Under the pieces are notes generated by a model. The model saw only the letters and a list, made by a program, of their open reading frames with translations. It searched no databases and was not told where the DNA came from. Source: a virus. From it: 63,000 nt of DNA. A program made the position numbers and the translations under genes. The DNA lies in the IMG/VR virus record IMGVR_UViG_3300042938_000809, positions 1-63,000 of that record; one strand, given 5' to 3'. Of this stretch, positions 14,068 to 63,000 are shown piece after piece; position 1 is the stretch's first letter, and every line of letters starts with the position of its first letter.

Positions 14068-15660
14068 ATGGAATACAATAATCCGAGTGAGATTGTTAAA
14101 GATCTTACCTATGGCGAAGAAGCTAGAGGAAAAATAATGCTAGGCGTTGAGAAATTAACAAACGCAGTGAAGTCCACATTGGGAGCTTCTGGAAAATGCG
14201 TGATATACGAAGACGCGCTAGGTCGGCCGGTGATTACAAAAGACGGAGTTACAGTCGCAGAGTCTGTAGTCTTGATAGATCCTGTCGAAAATATAGGCGC
14301 TACCTTAATAAAAGAGGCCGCCGCTAATACAGTGAGAGACGCGGGAGACGGTACTACTACAGCTACCGTCTTAGCGCACTCATTATTAAAAGAAATAAAC
14401 AACTATAAAGGGTACGATACCGCAAGGGAAATTAAAGGGGGCATCGACAAAGCAACTGCTGCGGTAATGGCTTACTTAGATTCTACAAGCGTTCCTGTTA
14501 AAGGTAAAATGTTGCGAAGTGTTGCTAGTATAAGTTGTAACAATGATAAAGAATTAGGCGAAAAGATAGGCGATGCTTATGAGAGAGTAGGTGCTGACGG
14601 CGTTGTTATGATGGAAGAATCAGAAACAAATGAAACTTATGTAGAGTTTGTAGATGGCGTACAATTTGACTCTGGGTTAAAATCACAGTACTTAGTTACT
14701 GACCGGGATAAAATGACGGCCGTTTTAGATAAGCCATACGTGCTAATTGTTAGTTCACCATTGCCTAACATTAGAAAAATACAAAACGTCCTAGAACACA
14801 TCCAGAAGACGCGTAGGAGCCTATTAATAGTAGCTGAGGTTGATCAGCAGCCATACGCAACATTGCTAGCTAATAAAGTCAAGGGTAATATAAAAGTAAA
14901 CATCGTGGATCCTCCTGGGTTTGGAGCGACAAGATTAGATACATTAGAAGACTTAGCTTTTCTAACAGGAGCTACGTTAATTGACGAAGCAATGGGCGAC
15001 GATCTAGACTTAATAGATATTAATATATTAGGTGAGGCTGTTAAAGCTGTTACGGATAACAAAGTTACTGTTCTACAAATAGACGAAGCGGGTGAAGAAC
15101 TAGCTGTGCGTGTAGAAGATGTTAGAAAGAAGATAAAGAATGAAACAAATTCTTTCCTTAAGAAAAAATTAGAGCAAAGGTTAGCAATGCTTTCTGGTAA
15201 AGTAGGCATTATTAAAGTAGGAGCTGATTCTAAGGTTGAGCTTAAAGAAAAGAAAGATAGAGTAGAAGATGCAATATACGCAACTAAAGCGGCATTGAAA
15301 GAAGGAATTGTTGCCGGTGGAGGTGTTGCTTTATTAGATGCGGCATTAAATATAAAACCAGAAAAAGACACTACGTTTAGTGACGGAGAAACACTATTAT
15401 TAAACGCTATAAAAGCTCCATTTTTTACAATATTAGATAACGGAGGCGTTGCTAAACCAGACGCTGAAACATTGATGTATAAAGAAGTTGGGAAAGGGAT
15501 TGATGTTACATGCGAATGCCATGTTGACATGATTACCAGAGGCATAATAGATCCGGTTTTGGTAACAAAATCGGCGCTCAAAAATGCGGTGAGTGTTGTA
15601 ACTACTATAGTTTCAGCAGATTGTGTAATCAGTAATATGAGGATCAATGCAAGCAATTAG
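14068..15660 (+). CDS. groL: Phage GroEL-like chaperonin (Hsp60)
   Basis: 530 residues, close to the bacterial 540-550. ATPase signatures are intact: KDGVTVA, RDAGDGTTTATVLA, VEDAIYATKAALKEG followed by IVAGGGVALLD. The apical domain (about residues 190-375) keeps the LLIVAEVDQQPYATLL and DPPGFGATRLDTLEDLA elements. The Gly-Met-rich C-terminal tail of host GroEL is absent, the product ending RINASN. It would refold phage proteins, probably the capsid or fibres, in the host cytoplasm. It overlaps the GroES-like gene by 14 bp. Confidence 0.93.
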   Translation: MEYNNPSEIVKDLTYGEEARGKIMLGVEKLTNAVKSTLGASGKCVIYEDALGRPVITKDGVTVAESVVLIDPVENIGATLIKEAAANTVRDAGDGTTTATVLAHSLLKEINNYKGYDTAREIKGGIDKATAAVMAYLDSTSVPVKGKMLRSVASISCNNDKELGEKIGDAYERVGADGVVMMEESETNETYVEFVDGVQFDSGLKSQYLVTDRDKMTAVLDKPYVLIVSSPLPNIRKIQNVLEHIQKTRRSLLIVAEVDQQPYATLLANKVKGNIKVNIVDPPGFGATRLDTLEDLAFLTGATLIDEAMGDDLDLIDINILGEAVKAVTDNKVTVLQIDEAGEELAVRVEDVRKKIKNETNSFLKKKLEQRLAMLSGKVGIIKVGADSKVELKEKKDRVEDAIYATKAALKEGIVAGGGVALLDAALNIKPEKDTTFSDGETLLLNAIKAPFFTILDNGGVAKPDAETLMYKEVGKGIDVTCECHVDMITRGIIDPVLVTKSALKNAVSVVTTIVSADCVISNMRINASN

Positions 15661-26383: not shown

Positions 26384-26585
26384 AATAAGTATAGGCAAGG
26401 ATTATAAGACCGACGCTATGCACTACTCTGTTGGGCAGGAAGTATACGGCGGTCATATAATCAGCAATATAATAGAAGAAGAAGATAAGTACTCTATATA
26501 TATTAAAAAGAATGAAGAGGTAGTGCCGTGGAAAGACTTTAATAAAAATATGGCTATATCTGTAGAATATAATTTAGATTACTAA
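26367..26585 (+). CDS. Hypothetical protein
   Basis: 72 residues, mostly beta strands (YSVGQEVYGGHIISNIIEE, KYSIYIKKNEEVVPW). A small barrel or SH3-like fold is possible. Its stop overlaps the next ATG by one base. No family recognised. Confidence 0.58.
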   Translation: MKLVRKISIGKDYKTDAMHYSVGQEVYGGHIISNIIEEEDKYSIYIKKNEEVVPWKDFNKNMAISVEYNLDY

Positions 26586-27181
26586 TGCGAAGTGTTTTTA
26601 GTTTTATAGTAGAGCCTATAGCTAATAGGTACACTAACGTTAAAGAAACAGAGAATGGTAAACTAATACTAAACACAGAACTACAAAATTATCAATACGT
26701 AAGTAGGCATGGTGTAGTTAAAGGTTTACCTTTAGCAATAGATACTCCTATAAAAGAAGGAGATGAGGTAATTGTGCACCACAATGTATTTAGAAGGTTT
26801 CACGATATCAAAGGAATAGAAAAAAATAGTAAAGCATATTATGATGAGTCTACCTATTTTGTAGATGAAAATCAAATATTCTTATATAAACATAATGGTA
26901 AATGGATTGCGCCTAAGGGTTATTGTTTTATAAAACCACTAAAGTCAAAGAATATATTTACTACAGATCATGAAAGACCATTAGTCGGTATATTAAAATA
27001 TGCCGATGAAAGTCTTTTAAAAAATAATATAGAAGCAGGTTCGCTAGTAGGTTTTTTACCTGGTAGTGAATATGAATTTATAGTAGAAGGGCAGAGGTTA
27101 TACCGAGTACCCACCAATTTAATTTCAATAAAATATGAATGTAAAGGAGACGAAGAAGAATATAATCCTAGCTGGACATAA
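26585..27181 (+). CDS. Protein with two GroES-like (cpn10) folds
   Basis: 198 residues. Each half follows the cpn10 order. In the first half: SFIVEPIANRYTN, a loop, HGVVKGLPLAID, IKEGDEVIVHHNVFR and the closing strand FLYKHNGKWI. In the second: GYCFIKPLKSKN, RPLVGILKYADES, IEAGSLVGFLPGSEYEF and RLYRVPTNLISI. A mobile-loop tip like that of GroES is not obvious. It could be a second co-chaperonin for the phage GroEL or a GroES-derived structural or packaging factor. It lies just before the terminase genes. Confidence 0.55.
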   Translation: MRSVFSFIVEPIANRYTNVKETENGKLILNTELQNYQYVSRHGVVKGLPLAIDTPIKEGDEVIVHHNVFRRFHDIKGIEKNSKAYYDESTYFVDENQIFLYKHNGKWIAPKGYCFIKPLKSKNIFTTDHERPLVGILKYADESLLKNNIEAGSLVGFLPGSEYEFIVEGQRLYRVPTNLISIKYECKGDEEEYNPSWT

Positions 27182-48303: not shown

Positions 48304-51300
48304 ATGAGTAATTGGACACCACCAGAAGATGCAGTTGAAGTGAAATCATGGGCTCCACCAACAGGTGCAGTAGAGGTAAAACCAAAAAGCGTCTTGTCTG
48401 CTGAAAAAAAAGTAGCTCAAGATATAGCTAGAAATACAGCTAAAAGAAAATCACAAGGATTATCTACATATTACTCTCCAGAAAAAGTAGCTTTAAAAGT
48501 AAAGTTAGAAAATCAATCAAGAGAAAAACAAAGAGCAATTGAAGCAGGCGTTCCTGAGGTTACTCAAGAAGAACAAGAAGCTTACAAAAGGTATTCTAGT
48601 AATAACGCTGTAACTAAAGAAGATGTAGATGAAGTTAGAAATAAAGCTTTAGAAGAAAAAAGTTTTAAAACTATAGGTGATAAAAGAAGAGCAGAAAGCT
48701 TGACTTCTGTTGGAGCTGCTATTGAGAATTGGTGGGAAGGCGATGCAGATAAAGAATATGTTGCTTTTGAAGATGAAAGAAAACAGGTATTAAAAGAAGC
48801 TAAGAGAGAAGGTAAGAAATATACCGGTGCCCAAATTGAAAACTTAACTGAAAGAAAGTTCAACCAAAGACAATATAAAAAGTTAATAAACAAAAAAGCT
48901 GAACAGTATCTAAAAGATATAAGCGGTGAAGAACAAGACTTATTAGAATCCAAAGGATTAAAAGAAGTAACAATTGAAACTAAAGCATTTAACAAAAGAG
49001 CCGCTGTAAATAAAAAATTAGAGACCGATATAACTAATTATTCAAAAGCTTATGATACCCAGCTAAAAGAAATTAAAGCTTACGGCAAAGAACCTAAACT
49101 TAATTCTCAAGAAGAGGTAAACTCTTATAATGAAAAGGTGCAAAACTTAAATAGGATAGCTAAAGAACTAACGCCTATTTATTCAACATACAAGTCTAAC
49201 CTAACTGAATACGACAAGTCTAGTAAGAAATTAGGTACCGCAGAAGAGGAATACGATCTAGCTAAAAGACACTATGGCGTTGGCTGGAACCTTTTGAAAA
49301 CAGCGGATGCCTTTGAAAACTTCTTTATTGGCGCAGCTGGTTTAGCCGGAATGGCAGGTGACTTAGCTACATACGTTCCAAGAAAAGTAGCTGACTTAGT
49401 TACAGGTGATGACGAAACCGGGTTTATGACAAGCGGCACCGAGTGGTTATACAAAAGAGCCGCTCAGCGTGAAGAAGAACAAAACAAATTTTATGCAAAA
49501 GACCGAGAGGTAGAAGGCGTAGAAACATTCTTTGAAAAAGGATGGGATCTGGTAGCAACACAAATTCCAAATATAGTCTTATTTGCTGTAAGTGGCGGAA
49601 CAGGTAACGTAGCGAAAGCAGGAGCTACTGAAGTCGCTGGATCAGTGGCTAAGGCTGCTGTTGATGATATTGCTATTGTTGCAGGCAAGAAAGCCGTTGG
49701 TAGTGGTGCAAAATATTTAGAACAGTTTGCTAATACTCGTATTGGTAAAACAGTTGTTGATGCGGCTACATTAAAAGGTTTCGCATCAAAAGCAATTGCA
49801 GGTAGTTCTGCTGGTACTAAATATCTAGATCTAAATTACGAAAAAGAACGAGGCAATATTGATTATAACCCACTGCAAATGATGGGGGCATCGTTATTAT
49901 ATGGCTACGCTGAAGGTGTTGGTGAAAATGTTACAATGGATATATTCAAGGGCGCAACTAGGCCATTAAAAGCTTTAGCTGAAGATGGCGCAAAGAAAGC
50001 ATTCCTGGATACATTGAAAAAAGAAACCGTTGTGTCTTGGTTCGGCCAAAGAGGTAGAGACATGCTAAATGAAAATATCTCTGAGCAAGTTACTAATCTA
50101 GCACAAAACGGTATAGATAAATTTATGCTTGGCAAAAATGTTGGTATGTTAGATAATACTGGCACAGTGTTTAAAGATACTACTATGTTAACCGCATTAA
50201 TGATCGGTAGTCCAGCTATAGCGGGTCAAGTAATAAGACCTTTTATACCTGTGTCCGATCAATCTAAAATGAAGTCTAATAGTTCTGAAATGGCTAGGTT
50301 GATTTCAAAAATGAATGGAGCAAGTGAAATTACTCAAAAAGCATACCAAGATAAAGTAGAGGCTCTGACAAAAGAGAACTCTGAAATGACTAAAAAAACA
50401 ATAGATAGAATTGGCGGTATTCCAAATGGCACGTACAATACTATATTAGAATTAGATAAAGGAAGAAGAGATATACAGGTAAGAGCTCATGACATACTTA
50501 ATAGTAATGAAAGTGAACAAGACAAAGCCAACTCTTTAAATATATTAAAAGAGGAGTACGACGCTAAGGATAATGAGTTAGCTGTTATACAAGATAATAT
50601 AAAGTTAGTAGATAATATTAGTTCAGATTTTGACGCTGAAACTAAAGAAGATATTTACAATTCACTTGTAGAAAGAAAGGAACTTGAACAGTCTATTAAG
50701 ACTATGGATCCTATGCAAAAGCAAGATGCTTTGGAAAAAATCAAGGAGATTGACGACACATTTAAAGCGTATAAGATTAGAAGCATCGTTGAAAAAGAAA
50801 TTGTAAAAGACTTTAACAAGACATTAAAAGCAAAAGAGCAACTTGGACTTGATAAACTATTCATACCAGATATTAGTACCTCAAACAGCGCTATGGAATG
50901 GTTACAAGCTAATACAAGTCTAACTGAGGCCCAAATTGAAGAACAGTCTGGTAAATACGGGTTTTTTGTTCCAACTAGTCTAATGATAGACCCTGCAACC
51001 GGTGAAGCTTTTACAGACGGTAGAACAGCTCTTATTGTAAACAAAGAAGAGTCTGGTCTAGACGGCGTAATAACAACCGGCCAGCACGAGATGTTACACG
51101 CTTTAATTTACAATGCTGTAAAAGGTAATCCCGAATTTGCGAAAAAGATAGGTAGTGATCTATATAACTTCTTAGAAACTACTTTAGCAAAAGATGTATT
51201 AGAAGGTTCTGAATTTAAAGAAAGATATGACAGTTATAAAGATGACTTTGTAAGTGAAAAAGAATCTTTGAATAAAGCTCGCAAAGCTAAAATAGAGAGT

Positions 51301-54300
51301 GCTAAAAAAGACATTGCTAATGCTAGTGAAGCTACTATCGCTAAATTCACAAAAACAATAAATACATTTTACGATAATAAAATAAATTTAGCAGAAGCAG
51401 ACTTTTTAGAAGAAACGTTAACGTTGTTATCTGAAGCTATATCAAAAGGCGATATAAAATATAATGAAACTTTTTTCACAAAGTTAGGTGATTTAATTAG
51501 AAGAGTTTTCCAAAACTACGGTTTAAAAGTAAATTTTTCTACAGGGCAAGATGTATTCAACTTTGTAAGAGACTATAATAAAAGTTTTGAGAAAGGTAAA
51601 TTTACAGACGCTTTTAAAGCTTTAGCTGTTAAAGGCGAGTATAAACCAACTAGCAATAAGAATGCTAAAGTAGGAACTGAAAGTATCAAAGCGTCAAAAT
51701 CTTTAGAACTAAAGAACCAATTAAAAGCGTTAGAAGAAGAATACGACGATGGTCTTGGCGAAATGCAGGAAGAGGAATACTTACCAACTAAAGCAAATCT
51801 TGAATTAAAATTAAAAGCCGCGTTAAAAGCAGAAGCATCTAGCGGTGTAGTTGAAAAGCCAAAGAAAGAAGAGACAGAAGAAGATGAAGTAAAGGCAATC
51901 ATAAGAAATGAAAAAGGAACTATAGCTTCTGATAAAGTACAAAAAATATATGATGAAAAAGGCGTACAAGGAGCCAATGAAATTATAAAATTATTTAAAC
52001 CTATAACGGCAAAAATAGTTCAGAAACGTAGAGATGCTCCTGGCTTTAATGAAGAAGAGCTTACTAAAGAAATAGAACTTGGAGCAGGTGGATTATTTGA
52101 TTTAATTAGAAAATTTGAAGCTAGCAAAGGCGTTCCTTTAGCGGCTTATATTAATAAAAATCTACCTTTAAGGGCAATTACTGCATCTAGAAGGGTATTA
52201 GACAAAGAGTTTACCAGTGATGTTGAAACAGAAGTCAATGTAAAAGCAACTGAAACTGCGGATCAAAATATGACCGATAGGGTTGCTGAAAAACCAAAAT
52301 ATAAAGATGCATTAGAATCTAATCTTTTTGAACCAGAAGTACTAGAAACAGCAACAAAAAAGATAATAACTATAGTTAGGACTTTGCGTTCTAAAATAGA
52401 CGAACCAGTTACCTTAAACCGTACTGTAACTCCGTTTATAGCTGAGATTAGGGATGAGGTTGGTAAGCAACTTGATATTGATATAAAAACAATGTTAGGT
52501 GGCAAGAAAGATGGTGTACTTAGAAAAGAACTTTTAAGAACTAAACGTTATATTCTAGAAAACATGACCACCACATGGTTAATGGGTAAAGACGGGCAAG
52601 GCGGAATACCTCAAGCAATACAAAAACGTATTGATGGCAAATGGGTTAATTTCCCTGATTGGGTCGGGCAAAAAATAGATAGAGAAGCAATGTCTACCGA
52701 TTTAGCTGGAAGAACTTCTGGTGCAGAATTGGTTAGAAGATTGCCTAATGTATTTAACAATGTACCTAACGAGGATTTTTTAGCGCAAATAATCGGTCCT
52801 GATGGCAATCCAATCAGGGGTAGAAAAGAATCGGTTTCTAAAGCTATGGCTGAAGAATCAGCTATGGATATTATTAAAAATGATCTTGAAAACGACGGTC
52901 CAATATCTCAAGCTATCATAGCTAACCAAGAAAGGATTGGCGCTAAAATAACAGAATCTTTTGGAACAGAATTCGCTAGACAAGCTGAAAGAGGTAATAT
53001 AAAAAATTCTGAAAGACTTAAAAAAGGGTTTAAAGTATCTATTTCAAGATTAACAGACTCAATAATAGACGCTAAGGGTGATGTTGGATTGCAATCTATT
53101 GCTATTAAAAAATGGTTAGCATCTGACGGTAGGTCTATAAGAACCAAATCCTGGGCAATTTCAGGAAAATCTAAAGAGTTTACAACAAATGCTGCTTTGA
53201 TGCAGAAGATATTAATACCAGCGTTTAAAAGCTCATTAACAACTCCGTTTGTAATAGATAATGAAAATTACTTTCATTTAGTTGATGTTGAAAATGGCCA
53301 GACTATATATTACGGTGATGAACCTGTAAAATTATGGATGCAGATATCTGAAATAAAAGCTAACTGGGAAGACAATAAAGAAAAAGTTAGTCTGGAATCT
53401 AAATATGCTTATAGTCAAATAATAGAATTAGTAAATTGGGCTAAAAATAAAAAATTAGGTATTGAAGACTTTAAAGCTTATTTGTTTTTATTAAGTCAAG
53501 ACCAAAGAGGGCTTGTACGTAAGTTAGGTTCTCCTGGATTAGGGTTTATTGGTAAAATTGAAAACCCATACCTAGAACACAATCCTCCGCGATTTGATAT
53601 AATGGAGAGCATAGTTGATTTGTATACTGATTCAAACGGGATGACTGAGGAAAAATTAAAAGATATAATCTCAAAATCAAATGTTAACCTAATCCCCGGT
53701 AAATTAAATAAATTATTACCTAAGTATAAAAAAGGCGATAATAGAATGGAGGACCCTAAAGTTTTGCTATACATATCCAAAGCTCTTGAGTCTGGCCAAT
53801 TGATCACAGGTATCGAGTCTGAGTATGGTTCAATAGAAAGATTTGAAGCGCTGGTAAAAGAAGCAAAAACACCTACTGAATTACAAGAGGACACAGACGG
53901 TACAGCTAGAATTAAATCCAGTAAAAAATTAAGTGAAGACTTTAATAAAATAATAGAGGTGAACACCGGGATGGAAAACTTTAAAGTGTTTTCTGACATC
54001 GTTGCAAAAAGAAGAGGTGCTGGTATTGGAAAATATAGATTTTTCCTACCGCCATCAGCCGAAGATTTTACAGGTTTATTATATGACTTTTTAGGAAAAG
54101 GTAAAGCGGGAGAAGAACAGTTTGCATTCTTTAAAAAGAACTTAATAGACCCATACGTAAAAGGTACTGCCTTAATTGATTCAGCTAGACAATCTATAAA
54201 AAGAGATTACAAAGCATTGTTAGCGGCTTTCCCCGAGGTTAGAAAGAAATTAGGCAAAAAAATACCAAGTGGAGATTTTACTTATGACCAAGCAATTAGA

Positions 54301-56130
54301 GTTTCTATATGGGAAGATGCTGGACTAGAAGTTCCTGGATTGTCAAGAAGAGACACTGTTAAACTTAATGAGTTAGTAGCTAACGATCCTGAATTAAGTA
54401 CATTCAAAGCTAACCTAATTGTTACAGGAAGACAAGGCAATGGCTGGGTTGCTCCTGCAGAGTTTTGGGATGCCAACACAATAATATCTGACTTACACAA
54501 TATAACAGAAAAAGTAGGTAGAAAAAAATTCTTAGAAGAGTTTATTGAGAATGTTAATGAAATATTCTCTAAAGATAATTTGAATAAGATAGAAGCTATA
54601 TACGGATCTAATTTTAGAGAATCATTAGAAGACTCTATATACAGAATGTCTAATGGTACAAACAGAACATCTGGATCTAATAGATTAACTAACCAATGGA
54701 ATAACTGGGTTAATAATTCTACGGGGGCTATAATGTTCTTCAATACTAGATCTGCATTATTACAGGTAATATCAGGTATAAACTTTATTAACTGGAGTGA
54801 TAATAATCCAGCATCAGCAGCGTTGGCATTTGCTAATCAAAAACAATATTGGAAAGACTTTGCCTATATATTCAACTCTGACAAAATGAAAGAGAGAAGA
54901 TCAGGGCTTAAAGAGGATGTGAGCGCAGCTGAAATCGCAAACGCGGCTGAGGGTAGTAAAAATAAAGTTGGCGCAGTATTATCTTATTTATTGAAGATAG
55001 GTTTTACACCTACTCAAATAGCGGATAGTTTTGCAATATCAGCTGGTGGATCAACGTTTTATAGAAATAGAGTAAAGACTTATATTAAAAACGGTTTATC
55101 AGAAACTGAAGCAGAAGCTGAAGCATGGAAAGACTTTTCTAAAACAGCAGATGAAAACCAACAGTCTAGTGATCCTATGTTGATCTCTCAACAACAGACT
55201 AGCTCTATAGGTAGATTAATACTAGCTTTCCAGAATACGCCTATGCAGTATAACCGTTTAATGAAAAAAGCAGCTAGAGACCTTATCAATAGAAGAGGTA
55301 ATCCAAGCGAGCACATTTCAAAGATATTATATTACGGAGCGGTTCAAAGTTTTATTTTCAATGCTTTACAATCTGCATTGTTCGCGGTTGCTTTTACTGG
55401 AGGAGATGACGAAGAGAAAGATAAAGAAATAAACAAAAAGTCTGCAGACATAATTGATGGCATGATAGATGGTATCATAAGAGGCTCTGGATTAGGTGGG
55501 GCTATCGTTGTAACATTAAAGAATGCAATACAGAAATATCAAGAAGAGTCTGAGAAAGGATTTAAAGGAGACAATGCAAAAGTTTTATTACAATTACTCA
55601 ACATATCCCCCGCAATCGGTTCTAAAGCTAGCAAGATATATGGATCAATGCAAACAGCTATCTTTGAAAAAGATGTTATAAAAGAAATGGGGTGGAGTGT
55701 TACAAGAGATGGCAAATTAAATGTCAGTCCAGTATATGAAGCAACAGGAGCTCTTGTGGAAGGTACAACGAATATACCAATGAGTAGGCTAGTTTCTAAA
55801 GTTGAGAACATGTCGGAAGCCTTAGACTCTAGGAATGCAACTTGGCAAAGAGTAGCTTCTGCATTAGGATGGAAACCTTACGCTATAGGAGTGCATAACG
55901 AAGAACAAGACTTAATAAAAGCCGGTGCTAAAGTTAGGAAAAAAGCAGAGGGTGTAGAAAAAGCAAAAATAACTAGATTAGAAAACAAACTTAAAGAGCT
56001 TGATATGTTATCTAATATGACTACAGAAGAATATGATAATTATCTCAATATAAAGAAACTTGAGAGAAGATTAAAATATTTAGATAAGAAAATCAAGGAT
56101 GAAGAAACAAGGAAGATGTTAGGTAAATAA
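48304..56130 (+). CDS. Giant ejection protein with HExxH peptidase-like motif
   Basis: 2608 residues, the largest gene here. The N-terminus repeats W-x-PP-x-x-AVEVK (residues 4-14 and 16-26), a tag seen in phage internal proteins. Hydrophobic stretches near 335-370, 420-465 and 2345-2400 suit membrane crossing. Residues 928-932 form HEMLH, with a glutamate-rich helix EETLTLLSEAI about 110 residues later, a possible zinc peptidase. The region around 2140-2330 (ALLQVISGINFINW, LAFQNTPMQYNRLM) resembles the conserved tail of phage polyvalent proteins. It is probably ejected with DNA; no polymerase motif was found. Confidence 0.65.
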   Translation: MSNWTPPEDAVEVKSWAPPTGAVEVKPKSVLSAEKKVAQDIARNTAKRKSQGLSTYYSPEKVALKVKLENQSREKQRAIEAGVPEVTQEEQEAYKRYSSNNAVTKEDVDEVRNKALEEKSFKTIGDKRRAESLTSVGAAIENWWEGDADKEYVAFEDERKQVLKEAKREGKKYTGAQIENLTERKFNQRQYKKLINKKAEQYLKDISGEEQDLLESKGLKEVTIETKAFNKRAAVNKKLETDITNYSKAYDTQLKEIKAYGKEPKLNSQEEVNSYNEKVQNLNRIAKELTPIYSTYKSNLTEYDKSSKKLGTAEEEYDLAKRHYGVGWNLLKTADAFENFFIGAAGLAGMAGDLATYVPRKVADLVTGDDETGFMTSGTEWLYKRAAQREEEQNKFYAKDREVEGVETFFEKGWDLVATQIPNIVLFAVSGGTGNVAKAGATEVAGSVAKAAVDDIAIVAGKKAVGSGAKYLEQFANTRIGKTVVDAATLKGFASKAIAGSSAGTKYLDLNYEKERGNIDYNPLQMMGASLLYGYAEGVGENVTMDIFKGATRPLKALAEDGAKKAFLDTLKKETVVSWFGQRGRDMLNENISEQVTNLAQNGIDKFMLGKNVGMLDNTGTVFKDTTMLTALMIGSPAIAGQVIRPFIPVSDQSKMKSNSSEMARLISKMNGASEITQKAYQDKVEALTKENSEMTKKTIDRIGGIPNGTYNTILELDKGRRDIQVRAHDILNSNESEQDKANSLNILKEEYDAKDNELAVIQDNIKLVDNISSDFDAETKEDIYNSLVERKELEQSIKTMDPMQKQDALEKIKEIDDTFKAYKIRSIVEKEIVKDFNKTLKAKEQLGLDKLFIPDISTSNSAMEWLQANTSLTEAQIEEQSGKYGFFVPTSLMIDPATGEAFTDGRTALIVNKEESGLDGVITTGQHEMLHALIYNAVKGNPEFAKKIGSDLYNFLETTLAKDVLEGSEFKERYDSYKDDFVSEKESLNKARKAKIESAKKDIANASEATIAKFTKTINTFYDNKINLAEADFLEETLTLLSEAISKGDIKYNETFFTKLGDLIRRVFQNYGLKVNFSTGQDVFNFVRDYNKSFEKGKFTDAFKALAVKGEYKPTSNKNAKVGTESIKASKSLELKNQLKALEEEYDDGLGEMQEEEYLPTKANLELKLKAALKAEASSGVVEKPKKEETEEDEVKAIIRNEKGTIASDKVQKIYDEKGVQGANEIIKLFKPITAKIVQKRRDAPGFNEEELTKEIELGAGGLFDLIRKFEASKGVPLAAYINKNLPLRAITASRRVLDKEFTSDVETEVNVKATETADQNMTDRVAEKPKYKDALESNLFEPEVLETATKKIITIVRTLRSKIDEPVTLNRTVTPFIAEIRDEVGKQLDIDIKTMLGGKKDGVLRKELLRTKRYILENMTTTWLMGKDGQGGIPQAIQKRIDGKWVNFPDWVGQKIDREAMSTDLAGRTSGAELVRRLPNVFNNVPNEDFLAQIIGPDGNPIRGRKESVSKAMAEESAMDIIKNDLENDGPISQAIIANQERIGAKITESFGTEFARQAERGNIKNSERLKKGFKVSISRLTDSIIDAKGDVGLQSIAIKKWLASDGRSIRTKSWAISGKSKEFTTNAALMQKILIPAFKSSLTTPFVIDNENYFHLVDVENGQTIYYGDEPVKLWMQISEIKANWEDNKEKVSLESKYAYSQIIELVNWAKNKKLGIEDFKAYLFLLSQDQRGLVRKLGSPGLGFIGKIENPYLEHNPPRFDIMESIVDLYTDSNGMTEEKLKDIISKSNVNLIPGKLNKLLPKYKKGDNRMEDPKVLLYISKALESGQLITGIESEYGSIERFEALVKEAKTPTELQEDTDGTARIKSSKKLSEDFNKIIEVNTGMENFKVFSDIVAKRRGAGIGKYRFFLPPSAEDFTGLLYDFLGKGKAGEEQFAFFKKNLIDPYVKGTALIDSARQSIKRDYKALLAAFPEVRKKLGKKIPSGDFTYDQAIRVSIWEDAGLEVPGLSRRDTVKLNELVANDPELSTFKANLIVTGRQGNGWVAPAEFWDANTIISDLHNITEKVGRKKFLEEFIENVNEIFSKDNLNKIEAIYGSNFRESLEDSIYRMSNGTNRTSGSNRLTNQWNNWVNNSTGAIMFFNTRSALLQVISGINFINWSDNNPASAALAFANQKQYWKDFAYIFNSDKMKERRSGLKEDVSAAEIANAAEGSKNKVGAVLSYLLKIGFTPTQIADSFAISAGGSTFYRNRVKTYIKNGLSETEAEAEAWKDFSKTADENQQSSDPMLISQQQTSSIGRLILAFQNTPMQYNRLMKKAARDLINRRGNPSEHISKILYYGAVQSFIFNALQSALFAVAFTGGDDEEKDKEINKKSADIIDGMIDGIIRGSGLGGAIVVTLKNAIQKYQEESEKGFKGDNAKVLLQLLNISPAIGSKASKIYGSMQTAIFEKDVIKEMGWSVTRDGKLNVSPVYEATGALVEGTTNIPMSRLVSKVENMSEALDSRNATWQRVASALGWKPYAIGVHNEEQDLIKAGAKVRKKAEGVEKAKITRLENKLKELDMLSNMTTEEYDNYLNIKKLERRLKYLDKKIKDEETRKMLGK

Positions 56131-56210: not shown

Positions 56211-57953
56211 TTATCCGTCACAGGATAAACAGCCTTCATCCATTGCTTTGGCAGCTATATCACCACGTAAAACAGATTCAGTCCTCATATAGTATAAAGT
56301 CTTGACTCCTTTTTTCCATGCATCCATGTGCACCTTATTAAGCCATTTAGGGGTTGCTTCACTTGGAAAAGCTAAATTCAAACTAACTGCTTGGTCAATA
56401 TACTGCTGTCTCAAGCCTGCTTGATTAACTAATTCAAGTTGATTAATTTCTTTAAACGTTTTAAAAACCTCTTTAGCTGAAACTCCGTGAGAACAGAATA
56501 TATCCTCAAGTTCATCAACGCCCTGGACCGACCCACCGTCTGCCAATATTTTATTCCAAATTTCATCTGTGTTTAATTTATGTTTCTTTAATAACTTAAC
56601 TAACGTAGGATTTTTCCTGATGAATGTTCCTTTCGCGCTCTGCTCAGTGAATACGTTTGCAGCCCACGGTTCAATCCCTGCTGACACGTTTCCAGAAAGT
56701 TTGCTATTGCTAACAGTAGGAGCAAGGGCCCGCAAATGAGTGTTGCGCATACCAGTGCCGACACACCATAAAGGCTCACCGTAAACCTCAGCCAAAGCGC
56801 GACTAGCGCGTTCACTTTCAATTTTGATTTGTGAAAAGATTTTTCTTGTTTCGTATTGCGACAACAGTCCTTCGAACGGCAACCCTTTTTCTTGCAGGTA
56901 TGTATGCCAGCCAAGGACTCCAAGACCAAGTGCTCTTCCTTTCGTCGCTGAACGGACCGAATTTTCAAATCCGCGTAAGCCTTTTGCTCTTTGTATAAAT
57001 TCCTCCATGACTCCATCAAGGAACCATACTGAGTCATAAATGAGATTAGTGTCTTTCCACTCTTCATATTTTGCTAAATTTAATGATGATAAACAACACA
57101 CAAAACTATGTGTTTCGTCTGTATGTAATGTTATTTCACTACATATATTAGTCATGTGAACTTTTAATCCGTTGGTTTTATATGCCTGCGGATTTGCCTT
57201 ATTAACATTTCCTTTAAACATGATATACGGTTCGCCAGTCGCTTTTCGTTTTCTAAGAAGTTTACTCCATCTATCTCTAGCTTTAGCATCTCCTTGTTCA
57301 AGTTTTCGCATAAACTTATCACCAACAACTGCGCATTGATGTAAATTAAGCGATTGTCTATTGACATCTCCTTTGGGTTCGCGGATTTCAATCCATTCCT
57401 CAAAATCATTGTGTTCAATGTTGATGTTAACTGATGCTGCTCCTCTCCTAACAGAACCTTGATTTGTTGCAAGGATTGTTGAATCATAGATTTTACAAAA
57501 TGGCACGACTCCGTCTGATGTTCCATTACCTGTTATTTTAGCGCCAGCGGGTCTGATCTGATTAATACCGATACCAACTCCACCGCCGTGCTTAGCGAGT
57601 AGCATCATCTCTAAATTTTTTGTACCGATGTCTTGAATACTATCTGCAACATCAATTCCAAAACAACTAATAGGCAACCCTCGATCTGTGCCTGTGTTAG
57701 ACAACACTGGGGAGGCTAAACATAGCCAGCCATTCCAAATGTATTCAAAAAACTTTTCAGCTAGTTCTGGCTTGTATAAACGCCTTGCTACGGTTTTGGC
57801 TACACGCATGTAAGCGTCTTTTGGTGTCTCGTCAAATATTAAATAACCACCTGTTATTGTTTTCTTATATACATCTGTATCTCCCCATATAGGATAGTCT
57901 ACTCCTTTAACCCATTCATTATTCCACATCAATTTATTATTTTTAATTACCAA
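56211..57953 (-). CDS. nrdA: Ribonucleoside-diphosphate reductase large subunit
   Basis: 580 residues. Class I catalytic parts are present: ISCFGI (first active-site Cys), NICSEITL with Asn, Cys and Glu, VCCLSSLNLA (second Cys), the radical-path pair LYYMRTES, and a C-terminal CLSC for re-reduction. The N-terminal ATP cone that gives overall activity control in E. coli NrdA is missing, so feedback inhibition by dATP is probably lost. With NrdB it makes deoxynucleotides for phage replication. It overlaps the NrdB stop by 7 bp. Confidence 0.93.
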   Translation of the reverse strand: MVIKNNKLMWNNEWVKGVDYPIWGDTDVYKKTITGGYLIFDETPKDAYMRVAKTVARRLYKPELAEKFFEYIWNGWLCLASPVLSNTGTDRGLPISCFGIDVADSIQDIGTKNLEMMLLAKHGGGVGIGINQIRPAGAKITGNGTSDGVVPFCKIYDSTILATNQGSVRRGAASVNINIEHNDFEEWIEIREPKGDVNRQSLNLHQCAVVGDKFMRKLEQGDAKARDRWSKLLRKRKATGEPYIMFKGNVNKANPQAYKTNGLKVHMTNICSEITLHTDETHSFVCCLSSLNLAKYEEWKDTNLIYDSVWFLDGVMEEFIQRAKGLRGFENSVRSATKGRALGLGVLGWHTYLQEKGLPFEGLLSQYETRKIFSQIKIESERASRALAEVYGEPLWCVGTGMRNTHLRALAPTVSNSKLSGNVSAGIEPWAANVFTEQSAKGTFIRKNPTLVKLLKKHKLNTDEIWNKILADGGSVQGVDELEDIFCSHGVSAKEVFKTFKEINQLELVNQAGLRQQYIDQAVSLNLAFPSEATPKWLNKVHMDAWKKGVKTLYYMRTESVLRGDIAAKAMDEGCLSCDG

Positions 57954-58915
57954 ATATTTTCATAATCCTCGCCTTCACCTGCTTTGCTATAATCCGTAGA
58001 TCTTATTGCGAAGAAATCCGTGTGCGTATGCCCTCCGGTTAAATGGTAAAACCAATCTAAGTTTGCCGCAGCTTCTTTATTAAACGGGAAATAAGATCCA
58101 AGATCTATATAACCTAATTCAACTAGTTTTTCATTTGTACGTTTTTTTATAAACTGTATTAAATCATAAGACTTAATACCCTCAATCTCTCCTCCTTCAA
58201 ACATCTTATCAATATACTTAATTTCGAGAGCAACCATTGTTTCAGCAGCTTTTATTATATCTTCTCTACATAAATGTAATAATTGATCATTTTCTCTGCA
58301 CATATCGCGGAATAACTTACAACCCATTTTGCTGTGTAACGATTCATCACGTACACTCCATTTCATTTGTTGCCCAATACCCTTTAATAGATTCCTCATC
58401 TGAAAAGAATACAATACAGCAAATGCAGAATAAAGACTAACCCCTTCAGCGAAAGCGCTAAAAACAGCAAGAGACTTGCCAATCCCAGTATGTGATCTGC
58501 CTTCATAACCAACCAGATTGTTAAATCTTTCAGCTGTTGCAGGCTCGTGTAAAAAAGCTTTGTAATCTTCAAGTCCAAGTGTTTCATTTAAGTAGCTATA
58601 AGCAACAGCGTGAATAGTTTCTTGTGATCCAAACATCATTGCCATTTGTTGTATCTCATGTTTAGGAAACCAACCAACAACTTTCTGTGTCCAATAATCT
58701 GAAACTGCGCATTCTGTTTGAGCAAAACCTAGTAGAATATTTCCTACCAGGTTCTTTTCTTTTTCATTTAATTTTTCATTCCAATCTTTTAAATCTCCTG
58801 ACATACTAATCTCAGTATGCAACCAAAAGGCCTGCGCTTGTTTAAGCCAACCCTCTGTATAATAATCGGGATATTCAAATGGTTTGTATTCTATTCTTTT
58901 ATCAAATAATCCCAT
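57947..58915 (-). CDS. nrdB: Ribonucleoside-diphosphate reductase small subunit
   Basis: 322 residues, full length. Iron ligands and the radical Tyr are visible: ECAVSDYW, then QETIHAVAY with Glu, His and the tyrosine four residues on, FAEGVSLYS, and RDESLHSK with Glu and His. It holds the diiron-tyrosyl cofactor that starts catalysis in NrdA. Upstream of NrdA in transcription order, with overlapping ends. Confidence 0.93.
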   Translation of the reverse strand: MGLFDKRIEYKPFEYPDYYTEGWLKQAQAFWLHTEISMSGDLKDWNEKLNEKEKNLVGNILLGFAQTECAVSDYWTQKVVGWFPKHEIQQMAMMFGSQETIHAVAYSYLNETLGLEDYKAFLHEPATAERFNNLVGYEGRSHTGIGKSLAVFSAFAEGVSLYSAFAVLYSFQMRNLLKGIGQQMKWSVRDESLHSKMGCKLFRDMCRENDQLLHLCREDIIKAAETMVALEIKYIDKMFEGGEIEGIKSYDLIQFIKKRTNEKLVELGYIDLGSYFPFNKEAAANLDWFYHLTGGHTHTDFFAIRSTDYSKAGEGEDYENIW

Positions 58916-59085: not shown

Positions 59086-59253
59086 TTAATTATCTATTTT
59101 ATATTTTTCACGCATTTTTAATACATCTTGGTATTTAACTTTGCCTTTTACATTGAAAGACCATTTGACCCACTTGTCAAATTGTGCTTCAGCATATTTC
59201 TTCCAGGCTAACCTTCTCGATTCTCCAGGATTAACTGAACTGTCTTGTCGCAT
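59086..59253 (-). CDS. Hypothetical basic 55-residue protein
   Basis: ATG at 59251-59253 inside the end of the nuclease gene (46-bp overlap in another frame), TAA at 59086-59088. It begins MRQDSSVNPGESRRLAWKKY and is rich in Trp, Lys and Arg (FDKWVKWSFNVKGKVKY). The whole interval after the nuclease stop stays open in this frame and encodes a well-balanced basic protein. A DNA-binding accessory to the nuclease is a guess. Confidence 0.5.
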   Translation of the reverse strand: MRQDSSVNPGESRRLAWKKYAEAQFDKWVKWSFNVKGKVKYQDVLKMREKYKIDN

Positions 59254-59654
59254 TCTGCTTGATTTTGTGGTTTATATAATGTTCTATGATCATTGTTTTG
59301 CATCATCCATTGTTTAAATAATTTCCATCGCAATGGAAAAGAATCGTTAGCTCTACCTTTTGTTTCAATTATAAAATCTTTACCAATGAAGTCTGGCGTA
59401 TATTTTAGGTTAAGTATTTTTTTGTCGCCACGGTTCTCAAAGCCTCCTTTACCATTGGATTGTCTCTCAAAACTTTTGTTCGGAAATTGAAAACTAGGGA
59501 CAAGTTCAAAAGTATGGGATTCATATTGTGCTTTTATATCGTGTTCTTTTAATACTTTGTACATATACTTTTCAAGACCTGAAGCAAAGGTAATGCCATC
59601 ATACATTACCTTTTTTGCTACTACAGGACCTTTCTTTCTGCTAATCTTTTTCAT
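59208..59654 (-). CDS. PD-(D/E)xK phage endonuclease
   Basis: 148 residues. YTPDFIGKDFIIETKG carries the PD...E-x-K core at about residues 86-100, preceded by an N-terminal acidic helix with GLEKYMYKVLKEH. This matches small phage nucleases of the DUF1064 or T7 endonuclease I-like kind, which cut branched or junction DNA. It lies in the replication cluster and would help resolve replication or packaging intermediates. Exact substrate not determined. Confidence 0.78.
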   Translation of the reverse strand: MKKISRKKGPVVAKKVMYDGITFASGLEKYMYKVLKEHDIKAQYESHTFELVPSFQFPNKSFERQSNGKGGFENRGDKKILNLKYTPDFIGKDFIIETKGRANDSFPLRWKLFKQWMMQNNDHRTLYKPQNQAECDKTVQLILENREG

Positions 59655-59947
59655 TAATTGTAATTACCATATTTGTCTTTTTTGACATCAACTAATGTGT
59701 AATTAACTTCAGCGCGTTTAATCATTGCTTCTTGTTCAAGATCGGTTAATTCTTCTTTTAAACGTTGCATGTATAGCACAGCATCCATTAACTCTTCTTG
59801 TAAATGATTAGCCCACGCAAACAAGTCTGACTTATCATCTCGCAATGTTTTGCCGTATTTTGCAAAGCCAACATCTGATCTACTTACAAATTTAGCCACG
59901 ACTGATTCAACTACTGGATCTCTAAATTGGATTGTTACTTCTTTCAT
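59654..59947 (-). CDS. MazG-related nucleotide pyrophosphohydrolase-like protein
   Basis: 97 residues. The pattern GFAKYGKTLRD, then LFAWANHLQEELMDAVLYMQ, matches short helical proteins related to MazG and dUTPase, with the EELMDA acidic helix a likely metal site. The full ExxE...ExxD set is not all evident, so activity is unproven. Its ATG overlaps the stop of the next gene. It carries a GTATAGCA motif (59769-59778). Confidence 0.6.
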   Translation of the reverse strand: MKEVTIQFRDPVVESVVAKFVSRSDVGFAKYGKTLRDDKSDLFAWANHLQEELMDAVLYMQRLKEELTDLEQEAMIKRAEVNYTLVDVKKDKYGNYN

Positions 59948-60825
59948 TATAGTGTTGTTGTATTTAATTGATTAGTGCCTGTTACATTTAATTGATTAAT
60001 ACCTGTTGAGCCTGTGTGATTAGTACCTACCCAAGGGCCGTCTTTAACAAATGTACCATTTCGCATTGAACCCTTACGATCTTTAATTACATTATAAGCT
60101 AATAAAACACAGTCTTCAACTTTTAATCCTTCTAATGCAGCTAGATTTGTTAATACAACCATACAATCGCCAATAGCATCTATGAATTCAACTTGATCTT
60201 TTTTCAATATTGCTTTTCCTAATTCTCCAAACTCTTCTGATAATTTAAGAAATTGAGTTTTAACATCTCCATCTTTATATATACCTTTTTCATCTGCCCA
60301 TAACCTAATTAAATCGTACACGTTAGGGACTTCTGTTTTTGTTTTTGCTTTCGGTTCTATTAACGTTTTAGCAAATTCTTCTAATGCTTTATTATATACG
60401 TATGTTCTACCTGGATTGAACATTGATACGTTTGCATTCTTTACAATCCATTCTACTATTGCGGGAGTTAATGTATAACTGCCAAAGCCTGTTTTAAATT
60501 GTATTCCTAAGTTGTCAAACAAGTTACCCTTCAGTTTATTAATTGGACATGGAAACGTTGTTGTCTGTTCTGTTACATTTAATACCATTTTATTTTTTTG
60601 TTTATCGATTAAATTTTTATATGATTGTCTGTCTATCTTATAGCCGTAGATAAGTTGAAGTTCTAATTCTCGCGCTGATATATAATCTATATCATTACTT
60701 GAATCTAGAACTTCGTATTCTCCGGTATGGTATCCTTGTTGGATTGTTAATCTATCTTTAAGATTACGTGTTACTCCAATTTTTTTACCAAATATATGAT
60801 ATAAATAATAAATTGTTTTTGTCAT
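59947..60825 (-). CDS. Fusion of GIY-YIG-like and MazG pyrophosphohydrolase domains
   Basis: 292 residues. The first 75 (YYLYHIFGKKIGVTRNLKDR and SARELELQLIYGYKID) resemble a GIY-YIG nuclease, though the canonical tyrosines are partly altered. Residues about 168-255 are a MazG domain: SEEFGELGKAILKKD, then EFIDAIGDCMVVLTN, with the paired acidic helices that bind Mg and hydrolyse nucleoside triphosphates. The C-terminus is Asn/Thr/Gly low-complexity (TGSTGINQLNVTGTNQLN). MazG enzymes act on dNTPs or ppGpp; in this cluster a dNTP role is likely. Confidence 0.68.
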   Translation of the reverse strand: MTKTIYYLYHIFGKKIGVTRNLKDRLTIQQGYHTGEYEVLDSSNDIDYISARELELQLIYGYKIDRQSYKNLIDKQKNKMVLNVTEQTTTFPCPINKLKGNLFDNLGIQFKTGFGSYTLTPAIVEWIVKNANVSMFNPGRTYVYNKALEEFAKTLIEPKAKTKTEVPNVYDLIRLWADEKGIYKDGDVKTQFLKLSEEFGELGKAILKKDQVEFIDAIGDCMVVLTNLAALEGLKVEDCVLLAYNVIKDRKGSMRNGTFVKDGPWVGTNHTGSTGINQLNVTGTNQLNTTTL

Positions 60826-60833
60826 AGTGTTAC

Positions 60834-61601
60834 TTATATAGCTACTGTCGCTGTTATTACTGGACCATGTTTGTATGCAATTAATTCTAATAGATTACCA
60901 TCTAACTTATATTTAGGCAATTCAAAGTTATCTTGCTTTAAGTACTCATGAACAGCCTCTAATTGGTTATTGTATATGTGCGCATCTACTATCTGTATAT
61001 CCAAAACATTAGCATCTAATCCTGTGTAGTCAGCTACATATAATAGTATTCTAGTAAACAAAGCAACATCATAAGGTATACCTAAGAATAGATCGCCAGA
61101 TCTTTGCACAACAAACATATTAAGTTTGCCTTTGTCTACAAAAAATTGAAAATACAAATAACAAGGAGGCAAAGCCATCTGATCTTGCTGAGCTGGATTC
61201 CACAATGATATGATATGCCTACGGCTATCTGGATCAGTCCTTAATGATTTTATTACGTTTTGCATTTGATCTATATTTTGATTGTTAAAATTGCGCATTT
61301 GATGCCCATACACAGGACCAAGATCTCCATTCTCATCTGCCCAAGCATCCCATATTTTTACTCCAGCATCTTTAAACATTTTAATATTTGTTTGTCCAGT
61401 CATAAACCATTCAAACTCCGTATTAAATATTTTTTGTGACATTTTTCTACCTGTTATTATAGGAAAGTATTTTGAAACATTGATGCTTAAGGACGCATTG
61501 AAAATAGAACTGCAGCCTACTTTAGTACGATCTAATCTATGAGTACCTTTTGTTAAACATTCCCATAATAATTCTTTATATTGTGATTCATAATTTGCCA
61601 T
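60834..61601 (-). CDS. Thymidylate synthase family enzyme, possible dCMP (hydroxy)methylase
   Basis: 255 residues, compared with 264 in E. coli ThyA, to which it aligns without gaps over the core. Catalytic Cys147 lies in ALPPCYLYF; RSGDLFLG, DPDSRR and DAHIY follow. The loop reads GIPYDVA, with Asp178 where ThyA has Asn177, and Tyr148 replaces the His after the catalytic Cys. In phage T4 dCMP hydroxymethylase an Asp at this position selects cytosine. It may therefore methylate or hydroxymethylate dCMP rather than dUMP. This is inference from one loop. The gene lies directly before the GIY-YIG/MazG gene. Confidence 0.75.
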   Translation of the reverse strand: MANYESQYKELLWECLTKGTHRLDRTKVGCSSIFNASLSINVSKYFPIITGRKMSQKIFNTEFEWFMTGQTNIKMFKDAGVKIWDAWADENGDLGPVYGHQMRNFNNQNIDQMQNVIKSLRTDPDSRRHIISLWNPAQQDQMALPPCYLYFQFFVDKGKLNMFVVQRSGDLFLGIPYDVALFTRILLYVADYTGLDANVLDIQIVDAHIYNNQLEAVHEYLKQDNFELPKYKLDGNLLELIAYKHGPVITATVAI

Positions 61602-61602
61602 A

Positions 61603-61941
61603 CTAAAATAGTTTTAAGTCTTCGTTAATTGGTTTTTCTTTTTTAGTTTGTTTTTCAACAACTTTTTTTTCTTCTTTTATTTCATTCTTGGTGTACTTAT
61701 TGTAGTAATAACAATAGTATTTATATATCTGTTTCCATATCTCCACTTTGCCATAAGCTTCAGGACTGGTTCGGTTTCTTCCATTGATATTTATCATTAC
61801 ATACCATTCAGTATTACTCTTTGCAAATGGTCCAATGTATATACCATTTCTTATGCCCCACTCTCTAGCGTCGCATTCACTTAGTTTGCATGAGTAATTA
61901 CCCATGTCAACACCACCTTTCTTTTTAGTTCCACTACCCAT
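61603..61941 (-). CDS. Hypothetical protein in the replication cluster
   Basis: 112 residues. The region YSCKLSECDAREWGIRNGIY has two cysteines, and a Tyr/Lys-rich stretch (KQIYKYYCYYYNKYTKNEIK) precedes a basic tail ending EDLKLF. The ending could be an interaction tail resembling beta-clamp or SSB-like contact motifs, but that is speculative. An alternative start is Met13 (MGNYSC). Adjacent to the helicase stop. Confidence 0.52.
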   Translation of the reverse strand: MGSGTKKKGGVDMGNYSCKLSECDAREWGIRNGIYIGPFAKSNTEWYVMININGRNRTSPEAYGKVEIWKQIYKYYCYYYNKYTKNEIKEEKKVVEKQTKKEKPINEDLKLF

Positions 61942-63000
61942 TTATTCCCAAGGCATTTTATCATTCTCACTAACTGCTGGAACATGAGGCAGGAAACAAC
62001 CTGAGGCTGGTTCCCATTTAAAATGACATTCAGCACCATTCTCACCTAGGTTTTGAAACTTACATTTTAATACTTTCACTTTGACAGTCTTGTCTTCATA
62101 GTTTCTATGAACTAGTAACCCATGATAAGAAGCATCATACCATTCACCCCCTCCTTTAATATTGTACATGGTAGGTTCTTCAATATTGCCTTTTGAATCT
62201 TTGTACATTTTAGTGGGGTGAGCTACAACCATAACTAATACATCGTATTTTTTAGCAAAGATTTCAATCTTACTTAAGTATTCCAATGTATACACATTAA
62301 CGTCCCCTGATGAATCATTGTCCCTAACCTTGTTAAATGGATCTATAACAAGACATTTGATACCTTTACGTTTAACTAATTCAGCACCTTTTCTTAATAC
62401 AGAATCCAATGTATAACGTTCCATGTCAATAAAGAAATAATTATCATTGACATGATCCGCTATTTGATCCCATTTTTCAGTTTTAATATCTTCAACTCCT
62501 GGCATGCCTTGCCATGTTTTTCTCATCAGTTTGTGAGCATGCAAATATGTGGGTGTATTCTCAGGAGAAGCATAAGCAGTCTTCCAACCGTAGTTAGCAT
62601 TGTAACCTATAACCATTTGGTCAACAAAGTCAGACTTTCCAGAACTAGGTATACCAGTAACAGTGATGAACTGACCCGTATAAGTAGAGAAAATACTATC
62701 GAAATTCTCAAGCCCAACTTGGAATCCAGGTTTAAACCCATTGCGCACAAAATCCGTGACTTCATCTTCTATGTCTCTAAAGGTTGTTACATTTTCTAAC
62801 GGCACAGGTTTAGCTCTACTAATTCTATTAGATAAAGCTTCCTTGCCGTATTTAATTAAGTATTCATTAGCATCCTTACAATCATCGAAAGTTGCAATAT
62901 AACAAGTTTCTGATCCTAATCTCCTAACTAACTCAGACTGCAAGGCTTGCCCGGCAGCGTCTGAATCAACTGCTATTATTATCTTTTGTTTGTCTTCAAA
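61942..63000 (-). CDS. Primase-helicase (TOPRIM/DnaB-like), 5' end outside window
   Basis: The frame stays open from the right edge through a TOPRIM motif (IIIAVDSDAAGQALQSEL) and a linker to a RecA/DnaB helicase domain with Walker A GIPSSGKSD and Walker B CLVIDPFNK, followed by VVAHPTKM and a C-terminal GGGEWYDASYHGL. This is the T7 gp4 or Twinkle layout, unwinding DNA and possibly priming. At least 353 residues are in the window; the N-terminal zinc and primase parts are not visible. The apparent ORF start near 62943 is a TTG codon inside the protein. Confidence 0.85.
   Translation of the reverse strand, partial: FEDKQKIIIAVDSDAAGQALQSELVRRLGSETCYIATFDDCKDANEYLIKYGKEALSNRISRAKPVPLENVTTFRDIEDEVTDFVRNGFKPGFQVGLENFDSIFSTYTGQFITVTGIPSSGKSDFVDQMVIGYNANYGWKTAYASPENTPTYLHAHKLMRKTWQGMPGVEDIKTEKWDQIADHVNDNYFFIDMERYTLDSVLRKGAELVKRKGIKCLVIDPFNKVRDNDSSGDVNVYTLEYLSKIEIFAKKYDVLVMVVAHPTKMYKDSKGNIEEPTMYNIKGGGEWYDASYHGLLVHRNYEDKTVKVKVLKCKFQNLGENGAECHFKWEPASGCFLPHVPAVSENDKMPWE

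Follow-up and report, generated by a model that had tools for sequence, protein, structure and literature searches.

A phage thymidylate synthase homologue with active-site residues of cytosine-nucleotide enzymes probably makes 5-methyl-dCMP

To our knowledge, DNA with complete 5-methylcytosine is classically the property of one phage group, that of Xp12. In Xp12 DNA, 5-methylcytosine replaces all cytosine (PMC7653180), and the DNA of its relative AXL1 is enzyme-resistant (PMC9206674). The MetaGPA metagenomic screen examined sewage and sea water for phage DNA with modified cytosine, and positions 147 and 177 of thymidylate synthase (TS) ranked as the top two in differential conservation between the TS of modified and unmodified contigs (PMC8670742). 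The TS of modified contigs mostly had Asp at 177, and the text does not name the residue that replaces His147 (PMC8670742). An engineered ThyA with Asn177Asp switches to dCMP and yields 5mdCMP (cited in PMC8670742). Among hydroxymethylating enzymes, Asp occupies the 177 position in both T4 gp42 and the CMP hydroxymethylase MilA (PMC5175136), and a hydroxymethylation signature has been proposed that consists of an acidic residue at Cys-3 and a Ser or Thr two residues before the active-site Tyr (Tyr94) (PMC6400193; T4 structure paper).

The window (the whole 63,000-nucleotide stretch of viral DNA analyzed here) encodes a 255-aa ThyA-family protein, whose Pfam match to PF00303 spans its full length (Table 1) and which is about 38-40% identical to E. 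coli ThyA in pairwise comparison. In the alignment, Asn177 of E. coli ThyA corresponds to Asp178 of the window TS, within 'RSGDLFLGIPYDV', and His147 corresponds to Tyr148, in the motif 'ALPPCYLYF'. The window TS and its close relatives thus have neither the Asn177 nor the His147 of dUMP-specific ThyA, and the window enzyme has instead the Asp of dCMP-using TS homologues. The catalytic Cys is retained as Cys147, as are (in ThyA numbering, used below for positions 147 and 177) the Glu58 equivalent, Trp80, Trp83, Tyr94, Arg126/127, Arg166, Ser167, Asp169, His207, and Tyr209; the C terminus reads ...TATVAI. An earlier note on this DNA had reported the ThyA homologue, the Asp in its PYDV loop, and the Tyr beside the catalytic Cys. 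Its coordinates and residue numbers were correct, the alignment confirmed both substitutions, and we found the Asp in all near relatives and the Tyr kept in them as well.

Table 1. Features of the TS gene cluster in the window
Feature	Coordinates	Strand	Basis
ThyA-family enzyme, predicted dCMP 5-methyltransferase, 255 aa	60834..61601	-	PF00303 1.4e-75; residue alignment
Codon of Asp178, base-recognition residue	61068..61070	-	sequence and alignment
Codons of catalytic Cys147 and Tyr148 (Tyr148, 61158-61160)	61158..61163	-	sequence and alignment
112-aa protein, directly upstream of TS, conserved in clade	61603..61941	-	homologues directly upstream in related loci
Primase-helicase, cut by window end, transcribed in TS direction	61942..63000	-	PHROG 239, 8.5e-60
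Fusion of a GIY-YIG-superfamily-like N-domain (about 1-75) and a MazG NTP-pyrophosphatase (about 165-250); proposed dCTP pyrophosphatase	59947..60825	-	
97-aa helical protein (WxNHxQEELMDA), conserved next gene	59654..59947	-	near 32/42 clade loci
DUF1064 / phage endonuclease I-like nuclease, TS gene cluster	59208..59654	-	
Ribonucleotide reductase small subunit, deoxynucleotide supply	57947..58915	-	PF00268 2.3e-55
Ribonucleotide reductase large subunit, deoxynucleotide supply	56211..57953	-	PF02867 8.2e-93

We scanned IMG/VR with the window TS and recovered 20 relatives, which are 65-97% identical to it and without exception carry 'PPCYLYF' and '[IV]PYDV'; the remaining members of the clade, down to about 53% identity, also kept the Asp177/Tyr147 pair, so its presence in the window TS is not a matter of chance. 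The same query matched 0 relatives in a collection of genome contigs. We also searched with a DNA pattern that encodes the loop with Asp177; of the 61 contigs retrieved, 60 were long enough to read, and the residue after the catalytic Cys was Tyr in 54, Thr in 4, Phe in 1, Asn in 1, and His in none. With a control DNA pattern for Asn177, we obtained 109 usable enzymes, and His147 was present in every one. In the sampled viral TS, His147 and Asp177 were therefore perfectly anticorrelated (His147 absent in 60/60 Asp177 and present in 109/109 Asn177 enzymes); the sequences behind these association counts are related rather than phylogenetically independent, and a Fisher value for the residue table is no true probability.

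We built TS trees without the two key columns (147 and 177). The window TS fell in a clade with UFBoot 100, all members of which have the Tyr/Asp pair, and in the first tree the sister of this clade was a second Asp177 group ('LPCCYT', support 96). The Xp12-like TS (Pro147/Asp177) and the T4/'Thr147' group were placed apart from the window clade. Xp12, represented by its relatives DLP4 and AXL1, and the window TS belonged to separate clades, each with UFBoot 100, and we rejected a close kinship of the two. Pairwise identity to the window TS was 31.5% for the homologue in Salmonella phage S144, 27.6% for DLP4, and 24.5% for T4 gp42 (E 7e-13). A close kinship with T4 gp42 was likewise rejected at this identity, which compares with 38% to E. 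coli ThyA; the likeness to T4 gp42 that had been drawn earlier holds for the Asp177 residue, but the two enzymes lie in separate clades. As far as tested, its residues would make the window TS a dCMP enzyme, but by descent it belongs to neither the T4 nor the Xp12 family. We dropped a claim of several independent origins of Asp177, since the first tree splits all Asp from all Asn enzymes by a single branch; in a wider tree, the neighbor of the S144-type TS was an Asn enzyme, and the branch concerned was not listed with support of at least 80.

The window TS resembles the Xp12-type enzymes (Bradleyvirinae: Xp12, AXL1, DLP4) in the Asp177 of a 'G[LI]PYDV' loop, a residue other than His at 147, an adjoining NTP-pyrophosphatase (NTP-PPase) gene, and the expected product, 5mdCMP. 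However, it has Tyr where they have Pro147, and Xp12-type loci also carry a dCMP deaminase and usually DHFR, whereas the window clade is without both. With T4 gp42, it shares the ThyA fold, the Asp, and a non-His residue after the Cys, but the hydroxymethylation signature of T4 gp42 (Asp at Cys-3 plus the Ser) is absent from the window TS, and T4 gp42 has no ThyA C-terminal tail, which the window TS keeps. The fold, the catalytic Cys/Glu/Tyr, Trp80/Trp83, and the C-terminal Ile are common to the window TS and E. coli ThyA; the differences are Asp for Asn177, Tyr for His147, and Gly for Cys168. MilA has Ala176/Lys133 for ribose, whereas in the alignment to ThyA the window TS has the Ser and Arg of deoxyribose-using enzymes.

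We next turn to the genes around TS. We searched contigs over their full length with the Pfam models of NTP-PPases (PF03819 and PF01503). A match to either lay within 1.5 kb of TS in 19/20 records with Asp177 and in 0/30 with Asn177; within 3 kb, 3/30 Asn177 records had one, two of the matches being weak. By phmmer, an NTP-PPase was found within 4 kb at 40/42 loci of the clade, at 11/12 of the other loci with Asp177, at 6/6 of the Xp12-like or Manatee type, and at 0/101 with Asn177. The totals, 57/60 versus 0/101, are biased towards Asp177 because the queries were drawn from that side. The types of NTP-PPase vary, from the fusion protein of the window clade to short MazG or PRA-PH-like proteins elsewhere, which fits repeated recruitment of a pyrophosphatase to one task. 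In two other phages (L211:2423-4229 and L216:1374-3708), an Asp177/Thr147 TS is flanked by a thymidylate-kinase-like gene on one side and a dCMP deaminase on the other, an arrangement that is a further candidate for a modified-pyrimidine cassette.

Two MazG-like genes had been noted beside the window TS, and one of them is supported as such. The fusion protein matched PRA-PH (2.9e-4) and MazG (1.3e-3) in Pfam and a MazG-like family in PHROG (1.2e-35), and its predicted structure matched MazG folds with Z about 10. It has the all-alpha domain and the EExxE and ExxD motifs of MazG, as 'EEFGE' and 'EFIDAIGD', and in a 33-sequence alignment K..G.T.....R...E and EExGE were invariant. The adjacent 97-aa protein is not supported as a second MazG: it had no credible Pfam match and no PDB match and was modelled as two helices. 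The 112-aa protein upstream of TS had no match in Pfam or PHROG. A cyanophage MazG prefers dGTP and dCTP (PMC6850273), and the MazG domain of the window also resembles the MazG of many phages without a known link to modified cytosine.

A cultured phage offers a point of comparison. The DNA of Salmonella phage S144, prepared from three hosts, was digested only by SspI and PacI, which have AT-only sites; its authors proposed that the DNA may carry a cytosine modification, did not find the responsible gene, and annotated ORF43 as a thymidylate synthase (PMC7432712). We observed that ORF43 of S144 (Loughboroughvirus) contains 'MALPPCYHGF' and 'GLPHDIL', that is, the Tyr/Asp pair, and has a hydrophobic end. 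Its immediate neighbor, ORF44, encodes an NTP-PPase (PF01503 1.5e-7; the pair lies at L220:3408-4885, MT663719). The Tyr/Asp pair is common to Loughboroughvirus relatives and Rosemountvirus BP63. ORF43 thus shares with the window TS 'MALPPCY', Asp177, and a directly adjoining NTP-PPase, but the NTP-PPase of S144 is a stand-alone protein encoded upstream, whereas that of the window clade is the GIY-YIG-like fusion encoded downstream. On the strength of the residue pair, we name ORF43 as a candidate gene for this published but unexplained modification, the base of which the digestion pattern does not identify.

Because the window TS carries the active-site residues of cytosine-nucleotide enzymes, we reasoned that the phage probably makes 5-methyl-dCMP. 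Its substrate would be dCMP rather than dUMP, with Asp178 recognizing the N3/4-amino side of cytosine. Cys147 would attack C6, and methylene-tetrahydrofolate would donate a one-carbon unit, to be reduced to methyl in the manner of ThyA. The adjoining MazG domain would most likely convert dCTP to dCMP, both clearing the competing nucleotide and feeding TS. Host kinases could then raise the product to 5-methyl-dCTP for polymerization into phage DNA, where 5-methylcytosine may conceal the DNA from host restriction enzymes. We consider it reasonably likely that a ThyA-fold dCMP methylase and MazG removal of dCTP together give this phage 5-methylcytosine DNA as an anti-restriction measure. The original suggestion of a dCMP-using TS and modified cytosine is strengthened by the invariant pair, the anticorrelation with His147, the positions singled out in PMC8670742, the NTP-PPase clustering, and S144.

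Which base would result was left as 5-methyl- or 5-hydroxymethylcytosine in the earlier note, and the active site narrows this to the former. ThyA enzymology indicates that Trp and the C-terminal residue favor hydride transfer. The window TS has Trp80, Trp83, and a hydrophobic Val-Ala-Ile C terminus, as in ThyA; it has Leu at Cys-3 and 'GPVY' at the second site (Pro two before the Tyr, with Val adjoining), and Cys-3 is likewise non-acidic in the Xp12-like TS, which are expected methylators. Since the T4 hydroxymethylation signature is absent and the ThyA features for methylation are retained, 5-methyl-dCMP is the favored product. Alternatively, water rather than hydride could end the reaction, making the enzyme a dCMP hydroxymethylase and the base 5-hydroxymethylcytosine as in T4. 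Asp177 would suit such an enzyme, being common to T4 gp42 and MilA, and the S144 digestion data cannot separate 5mC from 5hmC. However, neither the Leu nor the Val of the window TS agrees with the signature of PMC6400193, the Trp pair and the tail (which T4 gp42 is without) are ThyA-like, and no glycosyltransferase was recognized among the subset of window genes searched. We therefore regard hydroxymethylation as unlikely.

The methylase reading was also set against the gene content of the clade. In 13 clade contigs including the window, all of which may be fragments, we found no C5 DNA methylase (PF00145), which removes one other source of 5mC. The same 13 contigs showed no T4-type dNMP kinase (PF21448) and no thymidylate kinase (PF02223), so phosphorylation of 5mdCMP would fall to the host, and replacement of cytosine may accordingly be partial. 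They also had no ThyX (PF02511), no dCMP deaminase (PF00383), and no family A DNA polymerase (PF00476, the only polymerase family searched); replication in the clade may depend on the host polymerase or on one of another family. Exactly one TS was present per contig in 11/11 clade contigs tested.

A second alternative is that the enzyme is a thymidylate synthase that uses dUMP in spite of its Asp177 and only supplies dTMP. The window TS is overall nearer to ThyA than to T4 gp42, and a neighboring ribonucleotide reductase and MazG are frequent in phages for general nucleotide supply, both of which would be in keeping with such a role. Nevertheless, the same Asn177Asp change turns engineered ThyA to dCMP, and a dUMP enzyme leaves unexplained the loss of His147 in every Asp177 TS, the clustering with NTP-PPase, and the apparent cytosine modification of S144 DNA, for which its authors found no gene. 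We judge this explanation improbable. Slightly less probable still is a roundabout thymidylate route in which 5-methyl-dCMP is made but mainly deaminated to dTMP instead of serving base replacement: a reference title (number 87 in PMC11946847) speaks of 'new thymidylate biosynthesis' in Xp12 infection and a dCMP deaminase adjoins TS in Xp12-like phages, but that enzyme was missing from the 13 clade contigs and the DNA is modified in those Asp177 phages for which DNA data exist (Xp12, AXL1, S144).

The N-terminal domain of the fusion protein, which is joined to MazG throughout the clade, matched the T5orf172 model in 21/24 members and the MUG113 model in 20/24, with a best value of 3.6e-5 and most matches under the curated cut-offs; we take both models to belong to the GIY-YIG group. 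In the predicted structure of the whole protein, the order of its elements fits the bb-a-b-a(-a) core of GIY-YIG, and Arg25 and Glu53 are invariant in the alignment; against PDB, its sequence gave chance matches only. We speculate that the domain could be a nuclease against unmodified DNA. T4 endonuclease II attacks cytosine-containing DNA. The title of a reference in PMC11404850 describes that enzyme as a GIY-YIG nuclease. The window phage may belong to a distinct and widespread lineage with its own Tyr147/Asp177 dCMP methylase and a fused nuclease-pyrophosphatase, in which MazG would remove dCTP and the GIY-YIG domain would cleave the unmodified cytosine-containing DNA of the host. We hold this fuller picture to be doubtful; if true, one fusion protein would do the jobs that T4 splits between dCTPase and endonuclease II.

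The two-residue signature and its NTP-PPase neighbor point to at least one further clade of putative cytosine-modifying enzymes previously annotated as plain thymidylate synthase. The enzymology thereby becomes testable in the laboratory, and modification of phage DNA could become predictable from sequence, which is relevant to restriction, Type IV defense, and phage use.

Finally, we made several observations on the remainder of the window. Its ribonucleotide reductase is of the two-subunit kind (56211-58915), and that of a relative is B12-type (class II-like; L012:10778-12646). The phage encodes a GroEL-like chaperonin (14068-15660, + strand) and a GroES-like co-chaperonin (26585-27181, + strand). 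A sigma-factor-like protein (PHROG 351) is cut at the window edge (2-760, - strand), and the largest gene by far is a single ORF of 2608 aa (48304-56130, + strand).
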